Below the pieces are notes generated by a model. The model worked only from the letters and a program-made list of their open reading frames with translations. It was not told the origin of the DNA and did no database searches. This document shows, one piece after another, positions 2,097-56,902 of a stretch of 64,000 nucleotides of DNA (positions are counted from its first letter, which is position 1; the number at the start of each line of letters is the position of its first letter). Source of the stretch: a virus; the IMG/VR virus record IMGVR_UViG_3300021401_000004, positions 28,961-92,960 of that record; one strand, given 5' to 3'. Both the position numbers and the translations under genes were made by a program.

Positions 2097-4726
2097 ATGG
2101 GCTATAGCCCGAGTTCTAATAACCAGTCAAACCTGCCTCAGTCCACGGTTCGGTACTACGACAAAAAGTTCCGTTAAATGGTTCTTGCGGAATAGGGTCG
2201 AAGCTCGTGTGCCAAGAAACAGGAGAACCTGAAGGCACAGACGCCGTTCGTCGCGTGTTCCGAACGTTTGGACCTCCCGATGAAATCTGGTAACCAGTAC
2301 AACTTGTATCAAACAGGTACCCTCATCGCGTAAGCGATGTTGAATAACGTGGCTATATCGGGGGATAACTCATTGAGTCAATCCCGAGGGAAGTCTAAGT
2401 GACCCCGTAGAGACTACACGCCGCGCCCCGGAAACGGGTGATGATATAGTCCGCACTTACGGGCGACCGTAAGAGGTTGGCAGTTATACTTGCCCGCCGC
2501 AACAAAATGGATGTATGTTCCCCTCGCGGCCAACACCAGTCAGACGACTGAAGGAACTGTTGGCGCGGGCGTGAGCGTATCTGTACTGAATACCTCGGCG
2601 ACAATCGGTGAGTTGATTTGCGGCTCACCATAAACTTGACTATATCGGTGGACATCTGCTATAATGGCAGACAATACCGAGCCAAGACTAACCGTTTTAC
2701 AAGCCTATTAAATAATCCAAAAGGATGGCTAGAATGTCAGACAAATCAAAATATTCGTACCTCGCTGGAATTATTGATGGCGAGGGCTGTTTTTGCATCG
2801 GAGCTGGACGACGCCAGAAGTGGGGCGTCATCAACTACAATCCGCAGATATTGGTTGGCAATACGGACCATAGATTGACTGCGTGGCTGAAGGAAAACTT
2901 CGGGGGCGTAACTTTTACGCAACGCCCGAATAACCCGAGATGCAAAATTCCGTCTATTTGGCGGTTGTCGAAAAAGAAGGACATGGAACTTCTTATTTTG
3001 GCAATCATGCCTTATCTGATAATCAAAAAAGAGCGTGCAATTGTCTTCCTAGAATTTCTACGGCTTCCGCCGACAATGAATCCCGAACGTCGGGAAGAGT
3101 TGTGGAAACAGTTGTCGATCTTGAATAAACGGGGAGTAGACGTAGAGACTAATACGTCAAGCAGTTCGGAAAACGAACTGAAGATAGAGTCCGAACTTAC
3201 TGGTGACAGTAAGAGTGGCCCTGTGGTGACACAGGAGACGGCGACGCCCGTAATGACTGCCTAAAAACAGCATTCCCAAAACACAGTTGACGCTGATTAC
3301 GCTAACTTCTCCAGCCTCAGTCTGGCGACCGCAATCGACAACACTGTCGAAAACGTCGCCCGAGAGATGGCCTACCGTCTCGGCGAGTCCCTGTCCGCTT
3401 TGGTTCGTGCAACTGCGGACGGCGCGAACTCCGTGGATTCTTCGGTCCTGACCAAACTGGCCGCGACCTCGACCACGAGCTTCACGACTCTCTCCTTGAC
3501 CTACATCCGAAACGCCGTGCAGTCACTTGCTGGGCGTTCGGTTCGCCCGTTTGACGAAGCTTCCAAAAACTTTGCTGGTGTGATCCATTAGGTTGCGGGC
3601 AACCGCATAAGGGTGGATATAAAATTCTCTCTGATTGACTCGAACGCTGAGATGCCAACGAGGGGCAAGTCAATATAGTTCCATAATGGAAACATATTGA
3701 CAGCCTGAACGACTAAGCGAGAGAACGTTCATGTCGCATGAACGATGCAATAGTCTGAACAGTACGGAAAATGAACGTACTGAAGTAAGCAGAAATGACT
3801 TGCTCGGGCAAATCGCCCGTAACAACTTGCCTTTTGCACTCGGCGATGTTTTGGCGGACAACTCGAACGATTCGCCAATCGATATCCTGAAGCGTACTCC
3901 GCAGGGTTACAGCCGCCTGGATGAAATCATCTCGACGGACTTGACCGAAGTCATTGAAATCCCGACTTCCGGCGTAAGCTTCTTCCAGTCAAACTTGGTG
4001 ACCACCAGCCCGAACTACAATCCGGGAACTGGCGCGGTTACGGGCTTGACTGCTCTGCGTACGTATATCTTCGGGCGCGATGGCATTTTCTCCATCAACC
4101 TCGGAGCGCAGGGTGACACCGGATACGGTGACGGTGAGTGGCGGAATATCCGTTTTTCATAATGTTTAGCGGATACAAAATTTCTTCTAATTGACTCGAA
4201 CCCTGGAATGGCAACGAGGCGCAAGTCCAGAAAACGGACAGCGTGAGAGACTAAACGAAGAAACGCCTTCGGGCGATGCAATAGTCCGGTCTTCACAGAA
4301 CAACAAATGTGAAGAGGCAAGCAGAAATGACTTGCCCGTCGAAAGACGTAACACAGACGTGCAACATCGTGCAAAACGCCGAGCCTTCGGTTGCGGACCC
4401 CAGCGGTCTAATTCCGGGGTGGACCAGCTATCGTGTTCACTTCACGACCAGCTTGGGTCCGGATACTACAATCCGTATGTCATGGTAAAGTCCTAATGCG
4501 GATTCAAAACTCAATCTTATTGACTTGAAACCTGAAATGGCAACAAGGCGGAACCCTTCGGGGACCGTGAGAGACTAAGCGATTGAGCGCCTTCGGGCGA
4601 TGCGATAGTCCGAACATACGGAAAACGAACCGTATGAGGTTGGCAGAAATGACCAATCTCAACAGCTTGTAAGTTGTTGATAACAAGGCGATTAGGGAAA
4701 TTGACGCGGCCAGCGCAATCAGCTAA
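2097..4726 (+). CDS. Major capsid protein, seven exons
   Basis: Exons: 2097-2174, 2223-2309, 2511-2613, 3287-3588, 3830-4153, 4357-4476, 4688-4726. Joined, they encode 350 residues, the usual length of HK97-fold capsid proteins. Successive pieces match the expected order: an N-arm with YYDKKFR, then ENLKAQTPFVACSERLDLP, then MYVPLAANTSQTTEGTVG, then GESLSALVRATADGANS, then RSVRPFDEASKNFAGVIHP, then RTYIFGRDGIFS, and a C-terminal IDAASAIS. No single frame spans them: each break has stop codons, and exons 4, 5 and 7 change frame on the DNA. Five breaks are group I introns. The first, 2175-2222, is not a recognisable intron. A functional capsid therefore needs RNA splicing plus a way past that gap. 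Confidence 0.88.
2175..2222 (+). other. 48-nt in-frame gap with two stop codons in the capsid gene
   Basis: After codon CGT (2172-2174) comes TAA at once, then 45 more bases with a second in-frame TAG (2193-2195). After this the capsid sequence resumes at GAG AAC CTG in the same frame. Removing exactly 48 nt restores YYDKKFRENLKAQTPF, a natural capsid N-arm. The segment is far too short for a group I intron. GTTCTTG (2181-2187) can pair with CAAGAAAC (2213-2220) into a hairpin. The layout resembles the translational bypass gap of T4 gene 60 (stop right after the take-off codon, about 50 nt, internal hairpin). Matched AAG codons (2166 and 2214) are possible take-off and landing sites, but they lie two codons off. 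Mechanism unknown. Confidence 0.6.
2310..2510 (+). ncRNA. Group I intron 1 of the capsid gene
   Basis: The P7 pairing is GACTA (2412-2416) with TAGTC (2447-2451). A hairpin CTTACGG/GCGA loop/CCGTAAG follows (2456-2473), the same order as in the other introns here, and a GTAA-capped hairpin lies near the 5' end (2324-2339). The ends are set by protein continuity (NLY joined to MYVPL) with U at 2309 before the intron and G at 2510 as its last base. P1 is the weak point: only GTAT (2306-2309) with GTAC is seen. It has no ORF. Confidence 0.65.
2636..2665 (+). promoter_or_regulatory. Sigma-70 promoter inside intron 2
   Basis: TTGACT, an 18-bp spacer and a perfect TATAAT (2660-2665) lie 69 bp before the endonuclease ATG. 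This lets the homing endonuclease be made independently of capsid transcription. Confidence 0.6.
2734..3264 (+). CDS. LAGLIDADG homing endonuclease in capsid intron 2
   Basis: The protein has one clear LAGLIDADG motif, YLAGIIDGEGCF, near its N-terminus, followed by the alpha-beta region typical of single-motif enzymes that work as dimers. It would cut intron-less capsid alleles and drive intron spread. ATG 2734 is preferred over the in-frame ATG 2725 because AAGGA lies eight bases upstream of it. The C-terminal 45 residues are low-complexity (Ser, Glu, Thr) because the frame passes through the intron P7 and P9 elements, so that tail is probably structurally irrelevant. Confidence 0.85.
   Translation: MSDKSKYSYLAGIIDGEGCFCIGAGRRQKWGVINYNPQILVGNTDHRLTAWLKENFGGVTFTQRPNNPRCKIPSIWRLSKKKDMELLILAIMPYLIIKKERAIVFLEFLRLPPTMNPERREELWKQLSILNKRGVDVETNTSSSSENELKIESELTGDSKSGPVVTQETATPVMTA
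3589..3829 (+). ncRNA. Group I intron 3 of the capsid gene
   Basis: Exon ATCCAT (3583-3588) pairs with guide GTGGAT (3613-3618), again with U-G at the splice site. The four bases before the guide (AAGG) pair with the first four of the next exon (CCTT, 3830-3833), a textbook P10. P7 is GACTA (3711-3715) with TAGTC (3751-3755). The 3' end reads TAACAACTTG then exon; splicing gives GVIH-PFALGD. It has no ORF. The hairpin after P7 (CAGTACG/CGTACTG) has GAAAATGAA in its loop, a variant of the dispersed 13-bp motif. Confidence 0.85.
4154..4356 (+). ncRNA. Group I intron 4 of the capsid gene
   Basis: Exon ATCCGT (4148-4153) pairs with guide GCGGAT (4169-4174). P7 is GACTA (4249-4253) with TAGTC (4282-4286). 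CTTCACA/TGTGAAG follows, then GGCAAG/CTTGCC, then a GAAA-capped CGTC/GACG hairpin and TAACACAG as the 3' end. Splicing gives RNIR-TCNIVQ. The core sequence is very like intron 5. Confidence 0.82.
4477..4687 (+). ncRNA. Group I intron 5 of the capsid gene
   Basis: Exon ATCCGT (4471-4476) pairs with guide GCGGAT (4498-4503), the same target and guide as intron 4. P7 is GACTA (4573-4577) with TAGTC (4606-4610). Hairpin CATACGG/CCGTATG holds the 13-bp motif. The 3' end is placed after the CAACAGC/GTTGTTG hairpin at TAACAAG (G 4687), matching introns 3 and 4; this gives TIR-AIREIDAASAIS, the expected capsid C-terminus. Confidence 0.8.
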
Positions 4727-6030: not shown

Positions 6031-6059
6031 AATTAAGTTTGCTCAGTTGAAGTGCTGTT

Positions 6060-6100
6060 AAGACGTGCAAGACCGGGCTTCGAAGCCCGCAGGTCCACCA
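6060..6100 (+). ncRNA. ssrA: tmRNA acceptor piece (3' part, located upstream)
   Basis: The segment ends with T-arm CGGGC-TTCGAA-GCCCG (6074-6089), acceptor strand CAGGTCC (6090-6096), and encoded ACCA (6097-6100). CAGGTCC pairs over seven bases with GGGCCTG at 6181-6187, and CGTGCAA (6064-6070) pairs over seven bases with TTGCGCG at 6200-6206 (helix P2). Both partners lie downstream, so the gene is circularly permuted as in two-piece tmRNAs. Confidence 0.75.
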
Positions 6101-6180
6101 GATCGCCCGTTAAGTCGGTCGGAAAACTTGACTTCGGGTTTGGCTGCCAATATTTGCAAACTGGTAATGGGCGACGTGAC

Positions 6181-6480
6181 GGGCCTGAAATGGATTCGAT
6201 TGCGCGGACGAGATAGCATGGATGGGCACGGATGCTGTGGCCACGTTACGGACACAGAAACAACAACCGCTACGACTAAACCTCGGGCGTTTGCGGCAGC
6301 CGCTTAATAAACGGCCCGCACGGAGTCAGCCGGGAACTCTGGAAAATAATCCCGGCAACTTTTGAATTTGCGGGTAACCCCGACCTGTTGGGTATTAGGC
6401 GGCGTACGAGGATGCAACAGGGAACTCCTCACGCAGAAGTCCTGCCCGTAATAAAAACCGAGGCTCGGAGGCTAAACCTT
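6181..6480 (+). ncRNA. ssrA: tmRNA coding piece with tag frame
   Basis: It begins GGGCCTGAAATGGATTCGA, the conserved tmRNA 5' end. The tag frame ends at TAATAA (6305-6310) and reads up to TETTTATTKPRAFAAAA; the exact resume codon is not certain, but the -AAAA end fits a ClpXP-type degron. Helix CCCGCA/TGCGGG (6315-6320, 6369-6374) encloses GCCGGG/CCCGGC, and CCTGTTG (6384-6390) pairs with CAACAGG (6415-6421). An 80-nt spacer (6101-6180) separates it from the acceptor piece. The 3' end is not sharply defined. Confidence 0.8.
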
Positions 6481-44136: not shown

Positions 44137-44378
44137 TATTCTTCCTCGGGCGATTCTTTTTCCGTATCGTCGCCATCTTCAATACGACGACGGGTTTCCA
44201 AGGCGGCGAAATAGCATTTTTGAAGATCGGAAAAGTCCATTACGTATCCCGCTGAATCATCGTGCCCGAAACAAACCCCGTCAGTAATATACCCGCATTC
44301 GCTCGGGCCGGGTTCAAACCACATCATATCTTGATCCGAATAGCCCGCAATTTCAAATTTGAATCTTGGATAAGCCAT
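44136..44378 (-). CDS. Small acidic protein
   Basis: An 80-residue protein (MAYPRFKFEIAGYSDQDMM...) with a Glu/Asp-rich tail. Coupled by TAATG to the upstream HNH gene. Acidic small proteins often mimic DNA, but there is no direct evidence here. Confidence 0.5.
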   Translation of the reverse strand: MAYPRFKFEIAGYSDQDMMWFEPGPSECGYITDGVCFGHDDSAGYVMDFSDLQKCYFAALETRRRIEDGDDTEKESPEEE

Positions 44379-44755
44379 TATTCCAACTCCTTCGTCCATT
44401 GAGGTTTTCGATCCCCGTGAGCTTTCGGGCTATTGAAGTGGCAATCATAGCAGATTCCCACAGAGTTTGTCAAGCTGACTTCGCCGCCGTTGCCTTTCGG
44501 GATTACTTCGTGCATATTCATCCTGCGCCAAAGCGGGCCCGTTTCTGTAATCCGTTTTCCGCACCACTCGCACTTGCCCGAGCACCGCTTCCAGATGCTC
44601 GCACGAATAGCCCCAATTGCATCCTTCTTCGGGCAAGTTTCTAGGGTTCGGGCTTCCATCGCCCGAGACCAATCAGGGCCATGAGTCGAGCGAAACACAC
44701 GGATTATTTTGCCCGCGTCATTTCTTTCAACCCAGCAAGTGTTTCGGGCGTTCAC
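44378..44755 (-). CDS. HNH endonuclease
   Basis: A 125-residue protein with CEWCGKRI, HEVIPKGNGGEVSLTNSVGICYDCH, the zinc-stabilised HNH core. Possibly a homing endonuclease or a packaging-associated nick enzyme. A TTGACA-18-TATGAT promoter lies inside it (44444-44473), facing the next gene. Confidence 0.75.
   Translation of the reverse strand: MNARNTCWVERNDAGKIIRVFRSTHGPDWSRAMEARTLETCPKKDAIGAIRASIWKRCSGKCEWCGKRITETGPLWRRMNMHEVIPKGNGGEVSLTNSVGICYDCHFNSPKAHGDRKPQWTKELE
44444..44473 (-). promoter_or_regulatory. Internal leftward promoter
   Basis: Minus strand TTGACA (44473-44468), 18-bp spacer, TATGAT (44449-44444). Would feed 44136-44378. Confidence 0.45.
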
Positions 44756-46036: not shown

Positions 46037-46227
46037 GCCCTTGGTTTGCGGGCGACCCAGCAACTCTGGCAATACCCATCTTGGTCGTTGCACGGAGTTC
46101 CGGTATGACTATCCGTTTTCCGTATAATCTGATCAATAAGATTTAGCTCGTGACGGGATGCCTCATCATCGGCTTCATTCAAAAGCCCGAGCCTGTTTCT
46201 GATATACTCTTGAATTCTTTCGATCAT
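46033..46227 (-). CDS. Small hypothetical protein with Cys pair
   Basis: A 64-residue protein: a helical N-terminus, then CNDQDGYCQSC. The 13-bp motif at 46112-46124 is read as IRKTD. Start overlaps the helicase stop. Confidence 0.5.
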   Translation of the reverse strand: MIERIQEYIRNRLGLLNEADDEASRHELNLIDQIIRKTDSHTGTPCNDQDGYCQSCWVARKPRA

Positions 46228-47453
46228 TGTTGATCTCCAAATAACTGCGGTTCGTTTAATCGGGCGATTTCCACGAAGGAGGCAATCTCGCCCAAAAATA
46301 GTAAATCAACTTCGGCGTCGCCCGGACCTTTATCTCTGACCTTTACGAGCCGCAGCTTTGTCTGCGGGCTATAATCGTTCTTCCGGTCGTCGGAGTTCGT
46401 CAGCATGTCTCGATGAATCGTAAATACGGCGTCCGAATCGTCTCCAAACGCTACGCTACCACGAACGTCAGTAACATGCAACTGCTTGCCTTTGGCCGTG
46501 GATTCGGCTTTCTTCGGGGCTCCGAGGACGAAGAATTTTAGCCCGTAAAGAACGGCCATAGATTTAACGCGCTGCATCGCGTTTTCCATCGCCTTAACTT
46601 GATCTTGCTCGTTACGGACAAGGTAATGGATATTGTCGAGTACCGCGACTGTTGGGGATAAACGACGGATAGCGGCTTCCATCAAATCAAGCACGGGCGT
46701 GATCGTAGTCAATGCCGCGTTTCGCCCGACATAGTATTTAGCCCCAGCGAGGGCGTGGGCCGCTGATTTCATGTCATCGGGAGTGAGTTCAAGACGATGC
46801 TTTCGCAGAACGTGGGCGGTAACAATTCGGGAAATTTGCTCGATGGTTAGTTCGGCTTGATAATTGAGCACGACTTCCCCGTGTTTGCGGGCGGCTTCCA
46901 GCGTCTCCTGAAGTACGAATGTTGTCTTACCTTGCCCAGTAGAAGTCGCGACTACTCCGATTACTGATCCGGGCGACAGGATCGCCATTCGGTCCACGCT
47001 CGGAATCGAGAAGCGAAAGCGGTTTGGATCGTCCTTAACGTTTTCTTCCGTGCTGTTCATCAGGGATTCTTGCAAGCTGTAAATCCCCGCCATCGGGCGA
47101 ACTTTGGCTTCTTGGGCAAGGGCTTCGATCTTTGTACGGAAAACGGATTCTGATCGCCCGCAAGTTTCTAGAAAGAACTGATTCGCGTCTTTCACGCCTT
47201 CGGGCCATTGAAGCAAGTACGTTCGCTCTTTCATCTCAGCCCAAAGTTTGTTCATTGCCTTCTTGCCCGCATCGTCGTTATCGCCCGCAAGGATTACGGA
47301 TTCGGCTTGAAGTAGGCGATCTTTGTCTTCTGGGGTACATTGGTATTGGGCATTTGGAAGGCTGACAGACTTGAATCCGGCTTGTTCAAATGTCAAGCAG
47401 TCTATTTCACCCTCCACCAGGAACACGGGCTCAAGGAAGTCTATGTTCAACAC
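46224..47453 (-). CDS. DnaB-like replicative helicase with N-terminal TOPRIM
   Basis: A 409-residue protein. Residues 1-100 are a TOPRIM domain ([32 protein letters not shown]). Then a RecA-like helicase core: Walker [11 protein letters not shown], Walker [11 protein letters not shown]. It is the 3' half of a primase-helicase; its N-terminal zinc part is the separate gene 48051-48728, with an HNH gene wedged between. GTG 47453 lies inside the HNH end (GTGTTGA), so translation is probably coupled. Confidence 0.85.
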
Positions 47454-48049
47454 GATGCCCCACCTTCTAAACCCCGCCGACGCATTTCAGCGATTACTTC
47501 CGCGTCAGAAAAATCAGATATCTTTTTTATCCGCGTGTTCCCGCTTTGTTCGCGGTATGTGGCCCACCGACAATTTTCTGGAGAATACGGGCCGTCGTTG
47601 TCAATCCGTTCCAAGCTATATTTATTGCTCGGGCGTCGGCCCATATCCGAAATGAAATTGATAAACCCCTGCGGAGCCGCGATCCAACGATCACAAACAG
47701 TAATCCCTCGCCCGCCGTAGCTAGAATATTTTCTGTCCTTGGGGTTGAGACATCTTTGCTTCATCTGGCCCCAAATTCTGTATTCAGAAGCAACTTTGCC
47801 GCCGCCGCGACCCGAATAGCCGTGTCTAAAAGATGTTTTTCTTAATTGTTCCCTTTGAAAGCATCGGCAACTCACTACCCTTCCCGAAACTAACGGGCTC
47901 CCCATTACCGTGGTTTCATTACCGCAATCGCATTTGCAGACCCAAAGAATCAAACGGTGCCCTGCGGGAGATACATAATCCTCGGGGGCTCTGGCGACCA
48001 CCCGCAATCTGCCGAATTTCTGTCCGACTAAATTTTTAATTGTGCCCAT
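47447..48049 (-). CDS. HNH homing endonuclease splitting the primase-helicase
   Basis: A 200-residue protein. The N-terminus ([10 protein letters not shown]...[12 protein letters not shown]) is the zinc-binding repeat of phage HNH proteins; the C-terminal half has [27 protein letters not shown]...[20 protein letters not shown], a canonical HNH core. It sits exactly where the primase ends (LFNLE) and the TOPRIM starts (NIDFLEP). Its start follows the primase stop by one base; its stop overlaps the helicase start. There is no intron core around it, so it is an intronless insertion. Confidence 0.85.
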
Positions 48050-48050
48050 A

Positions 48051-48728
48051 TTAGCTTTCCAAATTAAACAGAGCCGTGTTCATGCCGGGTTGCCGCGAAA
48101 ACGCTTTGCGAACTATGCTTCGATACTTTATGCCCGTGACCAGGGGCTTGGAAGGAACATCGTCGCTTCGAACGAACGTCGGAAACGCCAACCAACCTCG
48201 GCCAGCAACATCTGCATTTGATTCTCCGGCGAGTTTACCAACATCCTGGCGAAATCCGATTCGTAGGCGTTGAGCCGTTTCCATAGAGATTCCTCGGGAT
48301 CGCAAAAAGGATTGGGCTTCGGGCGAGTTCTTGAGCGCGTTTTCCAAACGCCCGTATTCTTCGAGGCTGTACGTTTTCCGGACTTTCGATTCTTCTTGCC
48401 CGATAGGTTTAAAGACTTGAGAGACTTTTTCTGCATTTTGACTCCATTCCGAGCAATAGTTGCGGACAATTCCTACGGACGCCCGAAAGTCACAATTATC
48501 AGTTTGCTGGAGCAATTTGAAAATATCGCCGCTGGCCCCGCATGAAAGGCATTTGTAGATATACGTGTTTTCGTGCAACCAGATGTCGAAGTTAGTCGCA
48601 TGCTTGTCCGAATGAAATGGACACGGGCCTCGCCATCTCCGCCCGTCCTGCTTCAGAGACAGCTTCGCCCGATACAGATCAAGTATCTTGGGATGCTGCT
48701 TGAGTTCCTGCAAAGAGGATTCGGGCAT
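48051..48728 (-). CDS. Primase N-terminal part with CHC2 zinc finger
   Basis: A 225-residue protein. [12 protein letters not shown] and [13 protein letters not shown] are the zinc-binding CHC2 region that recognises primer sites; a helical linker follows. It ends TALFNLES at the HNH insertion. Together with the helicase it would equal one T7 gp4-like primase-helicase. It opens [14 protein letters not shown], almost the same as the neighbour at 48728. Confidence 0.8.
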
Positions 48729-48949
48729 CAGTATTTGGGGTCTTTCCTGAGTTGCCCGAAGGCATCCCAATCAAAATCACTAAAGCTGTTTTGCTCACTA
48801 ACCGAATCTAGTTTAGCGAGCACTTGCCCGTTATCTATCGTGAATTCCCTCGACCACCCGTACCAAGCGTACGAGCCTTCGGGATGCGGATTCAACTTCT
48901 TCCACAATTCCTCGGCTTGCTTGAGTTCTTGTAGGCTAGTTTCGGGCAT
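48728..48949 (-). CDS. Small protein sharing its N-terminus with the primase
   Basis: A 73-residue protein beginning MPETSLQELKQ, nearly identical to the primase start [11 protein letters not shown]; the rest is unrelated and rich in Trp/Asp. It overlaps both neighbours by ATGA. The shared start suggests an in-place duplication. Confidence 0.5.
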   Translation of the reverse strand: MPETSLQELKQAEELWKKLNPHPEGSYAWYGWSREFTIDNGQVLAKLDSVSEQNSFSDFDWDAFGQLRKDPKY

Positions 48950-50787: not shown

Positions 50788-51286
50788 TCAGTTCTCCGAG
50801 GCAGGAAAAAGGGTTTTCTTCCCTTACCTCTACTTCACTTACTTCACTTACTTTACTTACTTTACTTACTTTACTTACTTGCTTTACTTGCTTTACTTCC
50901 TTGGTAAGCTGGCGCTTAGCTTTTGCTAAGCCACCGCTACGCCCCCGCTCAGCTAATGCTTCGCGTTTGTCTAGCAAACGCTGCCAATCCCTCATCACCC
51001 GCCCATGAGCCAGCATTTCTTTCCCGTCCACAATTTCCGTGTAGAAGCGAGCAACTACTTTATTTTTGTTGGACATCCAGAAATCTTTGGTATCACAGTC
51101 TGCGAGCATCCAGAGAATATCGTCGTCTTTGGGGAGGTACGGGCGAGTGCTATGAAAGAAAGCAGCCTGCAAGAGCGTGCGATACAGGAATTTCTCCGAC
51201 TGATTCATTTTCCGGACAAACAGATCGGACTGGAATTCTTCTTCGTTCCATGGTTGATAGAAAGCCTTATCTTGCCCGTTAAGCAT
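50762..51286 (-). CDS. DUF1376-like replication protein with repeat tail
   Basis: A 174-residue protein. FYQPWNEEEFQSDLFVRKMNQSEKFLYRTLLQAAFF and YLPKDDDILWMLADCD match the DUF1376 (YdaU) pattern seen in phage replication regions. The C-terminal repeat (KQVKQVSKVSKVSKV) is encoded by an A/G-rich microsatellite. Start ATG 51286 inside the HNH gene end. Confidence 0.65.
   Translation of the reverse strand: MLNGQDKAFYQPWNEEEFQSDLFVRKMNQSEKFLYRTLLQAAFFHSTRPYLPKDDDILWMLADCDTKDFWMSNKNKVVARFYTEIVDGKEMLAHGRVMRDWQRLLDKREALAERGRSGGLAKAKRQLTKEVKQVKQVSKVSKVSKVSEVSEVEVREENPFSCLGELNVNQEENS
50830..50902 (-). repeat. Short tandem repeat (GTAAGTAAA-like units)
   Basis: Plus-strand ACTTACTTT-type units repeated about eight times with small changes. 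It encodes a Lys-Val-Ser-Lys-Val tail, so length changes in steps of three would keep the frame. A length-variable tail is likely between isolates. Confidence 0.7.
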
Positions 51287-51869
51287 TGACCGTTCCAATC
51301 TTAGCATGTCTGAGCATGTAATCTGCGATCAGAAGGATGTCAGACAAAGTGGCGTCGTTCTTTATTCGGTTGGCTTTTTCTGATATAACCGCGATGTTAT
51401 CGGGCGTGTAGCCTTTGGAGGAATCAATGCGATCCAAAGACGGGGAATTAGCACAGCGAATTTTTATCCCGTGTCTTAACTCGATTCCAAGAACGGGACA
51501 ATATTTGGGTATCACGATATCCTGGTGCGCGAGAGTGCAAACCCATCCCTTTTTCTTCGCCCGCTTGCGGGCCTGAATCAGCATTTGTCCAACACGGTTA
51601 ATTTTTCTCCACTGATTGTTTAATTGTCTAAACTTCGGTTTATTGTTGGAAAAATAACTCTTGTTGTATTCCTCGATACTCGCCTTATTTTCTGGTTTAC
51701 TTCTCCATCTTTTCCCCCGTCTTTGCCTGCCGACCTTGGCTTGTTCTGGATGGCTGCTATCATATTCTCGGTTGTAGCAGGTTTTACACAACCCGTTGCT
51801 ATAATGTTTCTTTTCGGGATGACATTGGGGAGGTTTGCCTCTAAAGGGCCGCAAGGAAATCTTGTTCAT
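51279..51869 (-). CDS. HNH endonuclease (homing type)
   Basis: A 196-residue protein. Cys knuckle CHPEKKHYSNGLCKTCYN at the N-terminus, then YCPVLGIELR ... SPSLDRIDSSKGYTPDNIAVISEKANRIKND, an HNH core. Starts inside the end of the RecB-like gene with GGAG upstream; overlap implies insertion at a gene junction. Confidence 0.8.
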   Translation of the reverse strand: MNKISLRPFRGKPPQCHPEKKHYSNGLCKTCYNREYDSSHPEQAKVGRQRRGKRWRSKPENKASIEEYNKSYFSNNKPKFRQLNNQWRKINRVGQMLIQARKRAKKKGWVCTLAHQDIVIPKYCPVLGIELRHGIKIRCANSPSLDRIDSSKGYTPDNIAVISEKANRIKNDATLSDILLIADYMLRHAKIGTVNA

Positions 51870-52703: not shown

Positions 52704-53168
52704 CTAAATGATTGCAGTTTGTGACTCTCGCTCTCGTCTGCGGGCGTCCGCTTGGAAGTGATGGGGCTTGCACAGCCAAACGACTTCGAGGGGTTTTGAA
52801 TAGTCCTCGTGATGGGCTTGAGACTTTTCATTGCCGCAAATTTCGCACGGAAGGCGGGACAATTTTCCCCATCTGATGGCATTATTTAAAATAGTCTTTG
52901 CCACCCACCTGTCTGGATGTTGTTTCTTGTATTCTGCTTGAGCGCGGACCCTTAGCGCGATCCTATGCGGAAGTTTTTCCCGCTCTCTATCATATTTCCG
53001 AACTTCTTCTAGTTTCGATTCACGGTGAATAATTGAGTCTTTCTTACTGCACTCCTTGCAGTTTCCTCGCAGACCGTCAGTCGTTTGCGGGTGGGCGTAG
53101 AAATCCGCCCGCGTCTTGGTAATCCCGCATTTGAAGCAAGTCTTGGGATCAGAAGGGCACGGAGTCAA
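52704..53168 (-). CDS. HNH-type endonuclease
   Basis: A 154-residue protein. CFKCGITKTRADFY...CKECSKKD is the N-terminal Cys pair, and LPCEICGNEKSQAHHEDYSKPLEVVWLCKPHH the HNH-like core. A common phage homing-type enzyme, here between the exonuclease and ssb. Confidence 0.8.
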   Translation of the reverse strand: MTPCPSDPKTCFKCGITKTRADFYAHPQTTDGLRGNCKECSKKDSIIHRESKLEEVRKYDREREKLPHRIALRVRAQAEYKKQHPDRWVAKTILNNAIRWGKLSRLPCEICGNEKSQAHHEDYSKPLEVVWLCKPHHFQADARRRERESQTAII

Positions 53169-56143: not shown

Positions 56144-56902
56144 TCACGAGTCCTTGCGGGCGTCAAGAGAATTCTGGTATGTCACGAGACGGGCAATCCA
56201 GGCATAGAATTCATCTTGAGTCAGTGTTCGTTTGGCGTAATTACATTGCTTGCAGCACGGTACTACGTTGTTTTCCTTGTATCCTTCGCTGTTCCTAACG
56301 CGGTCTAATCCGTTGTATGTAAATCGGTCGCCCGTCTCAAGACGGCGAACTTGTCTCGGTTCTACCCCGCAGTAATGGCAATTCCCTTTTACTAGGGCGA
56401 AGAATACTTCCTTGGTCAGGGTGAATTCGTATCCGCGCTTCTTAGAAGTTCCCTTGTACTGTTTGTATAAATTATTCCGGGCAGCCAAACCCTCGGGCAG
56501 GCGATTGGCCGTGCAGCCACATCCTGTTGACGTGCCGTTCCGCAGGGTGGGCGCTATTACGTTTCTTTCCGTGCCGCATTTGCAGCGGCAGAGGTATTGG
56601 ACGAGAGCACCCTTGTTTTCCGATTGGCGGATTACGAACCAATCGCCATAGTGCTTGCCTGTCTCGTTCTTATGGAGTTTGCCTTTACGTTGACAATTGC
56701 AACTTGTAGATCGCCCGTCAACGAGACTAGTAGCCAAGACAGACCGCTTTGTTCCACAATCGCAAAGACAGAGAAACCTAGTTGCCCCGTTCGTGCCGTT
56801 TTCGGCGCGTTCTAGGACAATCCATTTTCCGAATCTTTGACTTGTTAAATCCCTGAATGCGAGTTGCGGATGGCTTTTTAGGGGATATTTCAGTGCTTTC
56901 AA
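56144..56902 (-). CDS. HNH homing endonuclease with two zinc repeats
   Basis: A 252-residue protein. Two tandem repeats (RFGKWIVL...CDCGTKRSV; YGDWFVI...CKCGTERNV) precede an HNH core (CHYCGVEPRQV...YNGLDRVRNSEGYKENNVVPCCKQCN). A free-standing mobile gene beside polA. It starts TTG 56902, over the polA stop (TTGA), and has its own promoter inside polA. Confidence 0.85.
   Translation of the reverse strand: MKALKYPLKSHPQLAFRDLTSQRFGKWIVLERAENGTNGATRFLCLCDCGTKRSVLATSLVDGRSTSCNCQRKGKLHKNETGKHYGDWFVIRQSENKGALVQYLCRCKCGTERNVIAPTLRNGTSTGCGCTANRLPEGLAARNNLYKQYKGTSKKRGYEFTLTKEVFFALVKGNCHYCGVEPRQVRRLETGDRFTYNGLDRVRNSEGYKENNVVPCCKQCNYAKRTLTQDEFYAWIARLVTYQNSLDARKDS

Follow-up and report, generated by a model that had tools for sequence, protein, structure and literature searches.

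The primase-helicase gene of this phage is interrupted by an inserted HNH endonuclease gene, and it is very likely that this gene is free-standing, carries no splicing element and has split its host gene so that the enzyme is made as two chains. The insertion itself is confirmed, and chance is no sensible alternative to it, since homology to the intact protein extends, on either side, right up to a complete HNH gene from a large, known family. The locus lies in the window, i.e. the whole stretch of 64,000 nucleotides analysed here, which is the final 64 kb of a 92,960-bp record of an uncultured virus whose genome may be incomplete.

The three open reading frames follow one another on the minus strand. 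Namely, the N-terminal primase-helicase piece (48051..48728, 225 aa) carries the CHC2 zinc ribbon and the N-terminal subdomain of the primase RNA polymerase domain, with matches to Zn_ribbon_DnaG (Pfam, 1e-16) and to TIGR01391 dnaG (7e-24, profile positions 3-160); it terminates in ...NTALFNLES, followed by TAA at 48053-48051. A single base, 48050, separates this stop from the ATG (48049) of the free-standing HNH endonuclease gene (47447..48049, 200 aa), which was recognised from its match to PHROG 374, its AF2 model, the BFVD matches of that model and the family alignment. Finally, the C-terminal piece (46224..47453, 409 aa counted from its GTG) consists of the Toprim subdomain and a DnaB/T7 gp4-type helicase, and it matches Toprim_2 (8.5e-12) and DnaB_C (2.3e-11) in Pfam as well as PHROG 239, DNA primase/helicase (7e-50). 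Its GTG (47453-47451) and the TGA of the HNH gene (47449-47447) overlap in GTGTTGA, 7 nt being common to both frames. The earlier note had claimed an HNH gene inserted in a primase-helicase gene, with a one-base gap on one side and an overlap on the other, and this description is borne out, with the reading frames where it placed them and the colinear pieces aligning end to end. As context only, an ORF of 73 aa (48728..48949, minus strand) overlaps the primase ATG with its 3' end, and an ORF 92% identical to it also sits before the intact gene in the related contig L002. The start of this ORF, MPETSLQELKQ, is a near-copy of the primase start just downstream.

That relatives are unsplit, as the earlier note had also stated, holds for each of the nine related contigs (L002-L008, L010 and L091), in all of which one continuous primase-helicase frame runs across the site. 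Identity to the 409-aa piece is 80-95% in L002-L008, 43% in L010 and 44% in L091. In particular, L006 and L007 look like a single allele, and the scores of L005-L007 are similar in the first part; the nine contigs therefore represent approximately 7 distinct alleles. In the whole records of five relatives, the gene is a single open frame of 630-679 aa, as compared with 420 aa in the window. When the viral collection was searched with the motif that directly follows the site, known intact members and three unrelated contigs came up, with no split allele, and no relatives were found in bacterial genomes.

What exactly was inserted? In the alignments with L002, L003, L004 and L008, the first piece up to its residue 225 is continued with zero gap by the second from its residue 4 onwards, and the insert is for this reason inferred to span approximately 609 bp (47445..48053, minus strand), absent from 9/9 related contigs. 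The first three codons of the 409-aa ORF (VLN) thus derive from the insert. Since the three codons before the junction differ among relatives, the edges of the insert are uncertain by a few bases, and a loss or gain of residues at this point cannot be fixed. The insert contains nearly nothing beyond the HNH gene, and it brings with it the stop of the first piece and the GTG start of the second; its end is purine-rich, and the bases preceding that GTG are AGAAGGTGGGG. Directly adjoining the GTG, within the last HNH codons, one can read from the sequence a candidate ribosome-binding stretch, AGAAGGTGGGGCATC (47454..47468, minus strand). If read in the frame of the host gene, the insert opens with TAA and contains many more stops after it.

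The earlier note called the two pieces a primase half and a helicase half, and this part of its description has to be corrected. In Pfam searches, Toprim is found on the downstream (helicase) piece and not on the first one; in other words, the break falls inside the primase catalytic domain, between its N-terminal subdomain and its Toprim subdomain. In the DnaG and T7 gp4 families, Toprim bears the metal-binding residues of the primase. The first piece is consequently an incomplete primase, because the Toprim residues go with the helicase chain. A profile of the intact family aligns through the break region with T7 gp4 and DnaG, and the AF2 model of the intact L008 gene, which is reliable for approximately residues 1-340 only, matches the structures of DnaG and of the T7 primase. 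In this model, the break corresponds to a coil directly before the first Toprim strand, a linker-like place at which two chains could plausibly meet. Taken together, the two ORFs contain what characterises T7 gp4-like proteins, a zinc ribbon, a Toprim primase and a DnaB/RecA-type helicase. Like T7 gp4 and DnaG/DnaB, the relatives have a zinc ribbon, a Toprim-bearing RNA polymerase domain and a helicase, which they carry in a single polypeptide, and the window differs from T7 gp4 and DnaG/DnaB in having the break within the RNA polymerase domain. The short form of the T7 protein, gp4B, is without the zinc domain only, and it arises from an internal start and not from an insertion.

How would the two pieces be expressed, and would they work together? 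According to our proposal, one message would carry all three ORFs, translation being reinitiated at the 1-base gap and at the 7-base overlap, and the spacing of the frames makes such translational coupling plausible. No promoter-like site was found on the coding strand of the HNH gene, and the one weak match in the first piece scores below the shuffle mean. With its upstream neighbour free of promoter-like sites, the downstream piece probably relies on read-through transcription and GTG initiation. The chain with the zinc ribbon and the N-subdomain would then dock on the Toprim-helicase chain, and the ring of the helicase would in this way carry a restored primase active site. Judging only from the motifs that are preserved, we consider functional reassembly of the two chains somewhat probable. 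In the downstream piece, none of the 156 positions that are invariant among relatives is broken. That said, the conserved residues may be just a sign of a recent insertion, with decay that has not yet begun.

The alternative that survives best is that the split has abolished priming, such that the downstream chain acts as nothing but a helicase, the first piece decays as a remnant and priming is left to the host DnaG or to another route. In its favour, the whole catalytic domain is present in neither piece alone, and the first piece has diverged more than the second (51-68% as against 86-95% identity to the four nearest relatives). However, the two parts differ in this same way among the unsplit relatives too. 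What is more, the first piece has kept its zinc ligands, and 4 of its 46 invariant positions are broken, which lies within the range of 1-11 seen in intact relatives. Its pairwise dN/dS of 0.19-0.27 is likewise inside the 0.13-0.33 of unsplit pairs, with dS near saturation. Neither dN/dS nor the counts of invariant columns single out the first piece, and relaxed selection on it was rejected. Loss of priming is therefore in our opinion unlikely, if still a serious contender. As a separate observation, the N-terminal part of the gene (48054-48728, compared over L002-L010) is strongly mosaic and fast-changing in unsplit relatives too, independently of the insert; amid its divergent sequence, the window and L008 share a near-identical short stretch (97% over 75 nt). 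A co-conversion tract around the insert was also considered, as the window and L002 show a divergent stretch at the site, and this reading was dropped because the region is mosaic in unsplit relatives and L002 is an outlier beside the junction.

Does the insert remove itself at the level of RNA? If it were a self-splicing intron, with an endonuclease ORF overlapping the ribozyme core, the primase-helicase would be rejoined as RNA. A colinear insertion free of loss is indeed typical of introns, group I introns are present elsewhere in the same phage, and one register, read from the sequence, would let exon 1 end in U and the intron in G. Nevertheless, an Rfam search over 711 bases gave zero matches even at E<=10, as compared with 51, 34 and 21 bits for the group I cores that the window contains at another place, which served as a positive control. 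In addition, the HNH homology occupies approximately residues 1-190 of 200 and therefore leaves no room for a separate ribozyme, and the RNA of the insert folds like its shuffles (z -0.3). An intron, whether of group I or of group II, is for these reasons very improbable. The cores used as the control lie in tandem at 2300-4314 on the plus strand, perhaps together with a fourth one (16 bits); an ORF among them (2725-3264) is LAGLIDADG-like by eye, and several interruptions seem to lie there in a single gene. Rfam also reports a permuted tmRNA at 6040-6307 (plus strand) with 65.8 bits, above the gathering score, for which ARAGORN made no call.

An assembly artefact or a minority variant might also have placed the HNH gene in this locus, especially as a single record shows the insert. 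On the other hand, the edges agree to the codon with the intact alleles, the start and the stop of the insert fit its neighbours, and its G+C content (0.49) is close to that of the flanks (0.50-0.51), leaving this explanation with only a slight chance. Finally, split inteins that rejoin both chains after translation are hardly credible here: fractured genes of this kind with a new endonuclease family have been described (Dassa 2009, as cited in PMC10448857), but the pieces end and begin within approximately three codons of the homology boundary, and N- and C-intein sequences are consequently absent. An ordinary intein was rejected as well, since there are no extra residues and the frame of the host gene is broken by many stops. 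The earlier note had named an RNA or an intein reuniting the halves, or a second intact copy, as evidence against a split; the sequence shows no sign of the former two, and in the 92,960-bp record, maybe an incomplete genome, the zinc ribbon, Toprim_2 and DnaB_C give a single match each. The phage thus probably synthesises its primase-helicase as two separate polypeptides.

The protein encoded by the insert matches phrog_374 (HNH endonuclease) with an E-value of 4.2e-60, and its family is large, with matches in 1,100 phage records. It combines a Cys-rich N-terminal domain with an HNH domain of the beta-beta-alpha type, and its AF2 model (mean pLDDT 87) displays a strand-strand-helix arrangement at 144-169. 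In BFVD, this model has matches among the predicted HNH proteins of phages, and it gives no significant match to solved structures (Foldseek, PDB). Over an alignment of 28 proteins, the one from the window included, 13 columns are invariant, and its residues at these columns are intact. Canonical HNH enzymes have a His general base in the first motif; in the window protein the presumed place of this catalytic His is taken by Arg148, invariant in 28/28 proteins, with the correspondence of columns judged by eye. The family also has an Asn at the likely metal-ligand place and a near-invariant Tyr. In PacI, the general base is a Tyr (PMC4081073). The window protein resembles that enzyme in being Cys-rich, in the Asn at the ligand place, in the Arg in place of His and in the Tyr, yet the structural match is below significance (Foldseek E 0.78) and there is no sequence match, such that the likeness is a lead only. 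The HNH protein is predicted to home, nicking or cutting the uninterrupted allele of co-infecting phages, whose repair would copy the insert in. The record of the sister phage L002 contains two members of the same family at other places. Further HNH-like ORFs lie on the minus strand of the window at 44378-44755, 51279-51869, 52704-53168 and 56144-56902, those starting at 51279 and 52704 being recognised by eye. The first of the four has PHROG HNH matches and a position that is conserved in relatives, and the last one adjoins a DNA polymerase gene and gives two matches to the Cys-rich domain found in this HNH family.

Several known systems resemble this one. In Aeromonas phage Aeh1, mobE splits nrdA, and the split NrdA is active, as PMC2988022 relates from Friedrich 2007. 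The likeness of layout that the earlier note saw here does hold: in both cases, an HNH gene free of intron and intein lies in the gene of an essential, replication-related enzyme, which becomes two chains. Unlike in Aeh1, the host gene is a primase-helicase, and the HNH protein belongs to the phrog_374 type and has a Cys-rich domain at its N-terminus; it is for NrdA that activity of the split enzyme is known. The split of the T4 topoisomerase gene is linked with mobA, and in Aeromonas phage 25, a less sure case, gene 43 is split together with a seg gene, whose enzyme is of the GIY-YIG class and which may have been inserted where the gene was split already (PMC2988022). Both share with the window an endonuclease gene associated with a split replication gene, in other host genes. 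Endonuclease genes are also reported to disrupt replication or nucleotide genes, again different from ours, in phage MQM1 (DNA polymerase; its authors suspect an intron; PMC10410586) and in phage Mushroom (anaerobic ribonucleotide reductase; PMC4392139), and a survey of phage endonuclease genes describes numerous interrupted genes (PMC10448857). Among the open-access titles and abstracts that literature searches listed, none reports a split primase-helicase, which is weak evidence of absence given that subscription papers are missing from them. The insertion is well supported and the event is of a known type, for which the host gene appears to be new.

Coming back to the split into two chains, what would it mean for the phage? 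We tentatively envisage, at somewhat less than even chances, a working two-chain primase, in which a protein made of the zinc ribbon and the N-subdomain docks on a Toprim-helicase ring, with reinitiation across the endonuclease gene governing the ratio of the two. If this is true, priming could be adjusted independently of unwinding, and one would have in the primase RNA polymerase domain an enzyme that nature itself has split. The locus provides a natural cut point in the primase catalytic domain, and one can use it to test directly whether this domain assembles from two chains.
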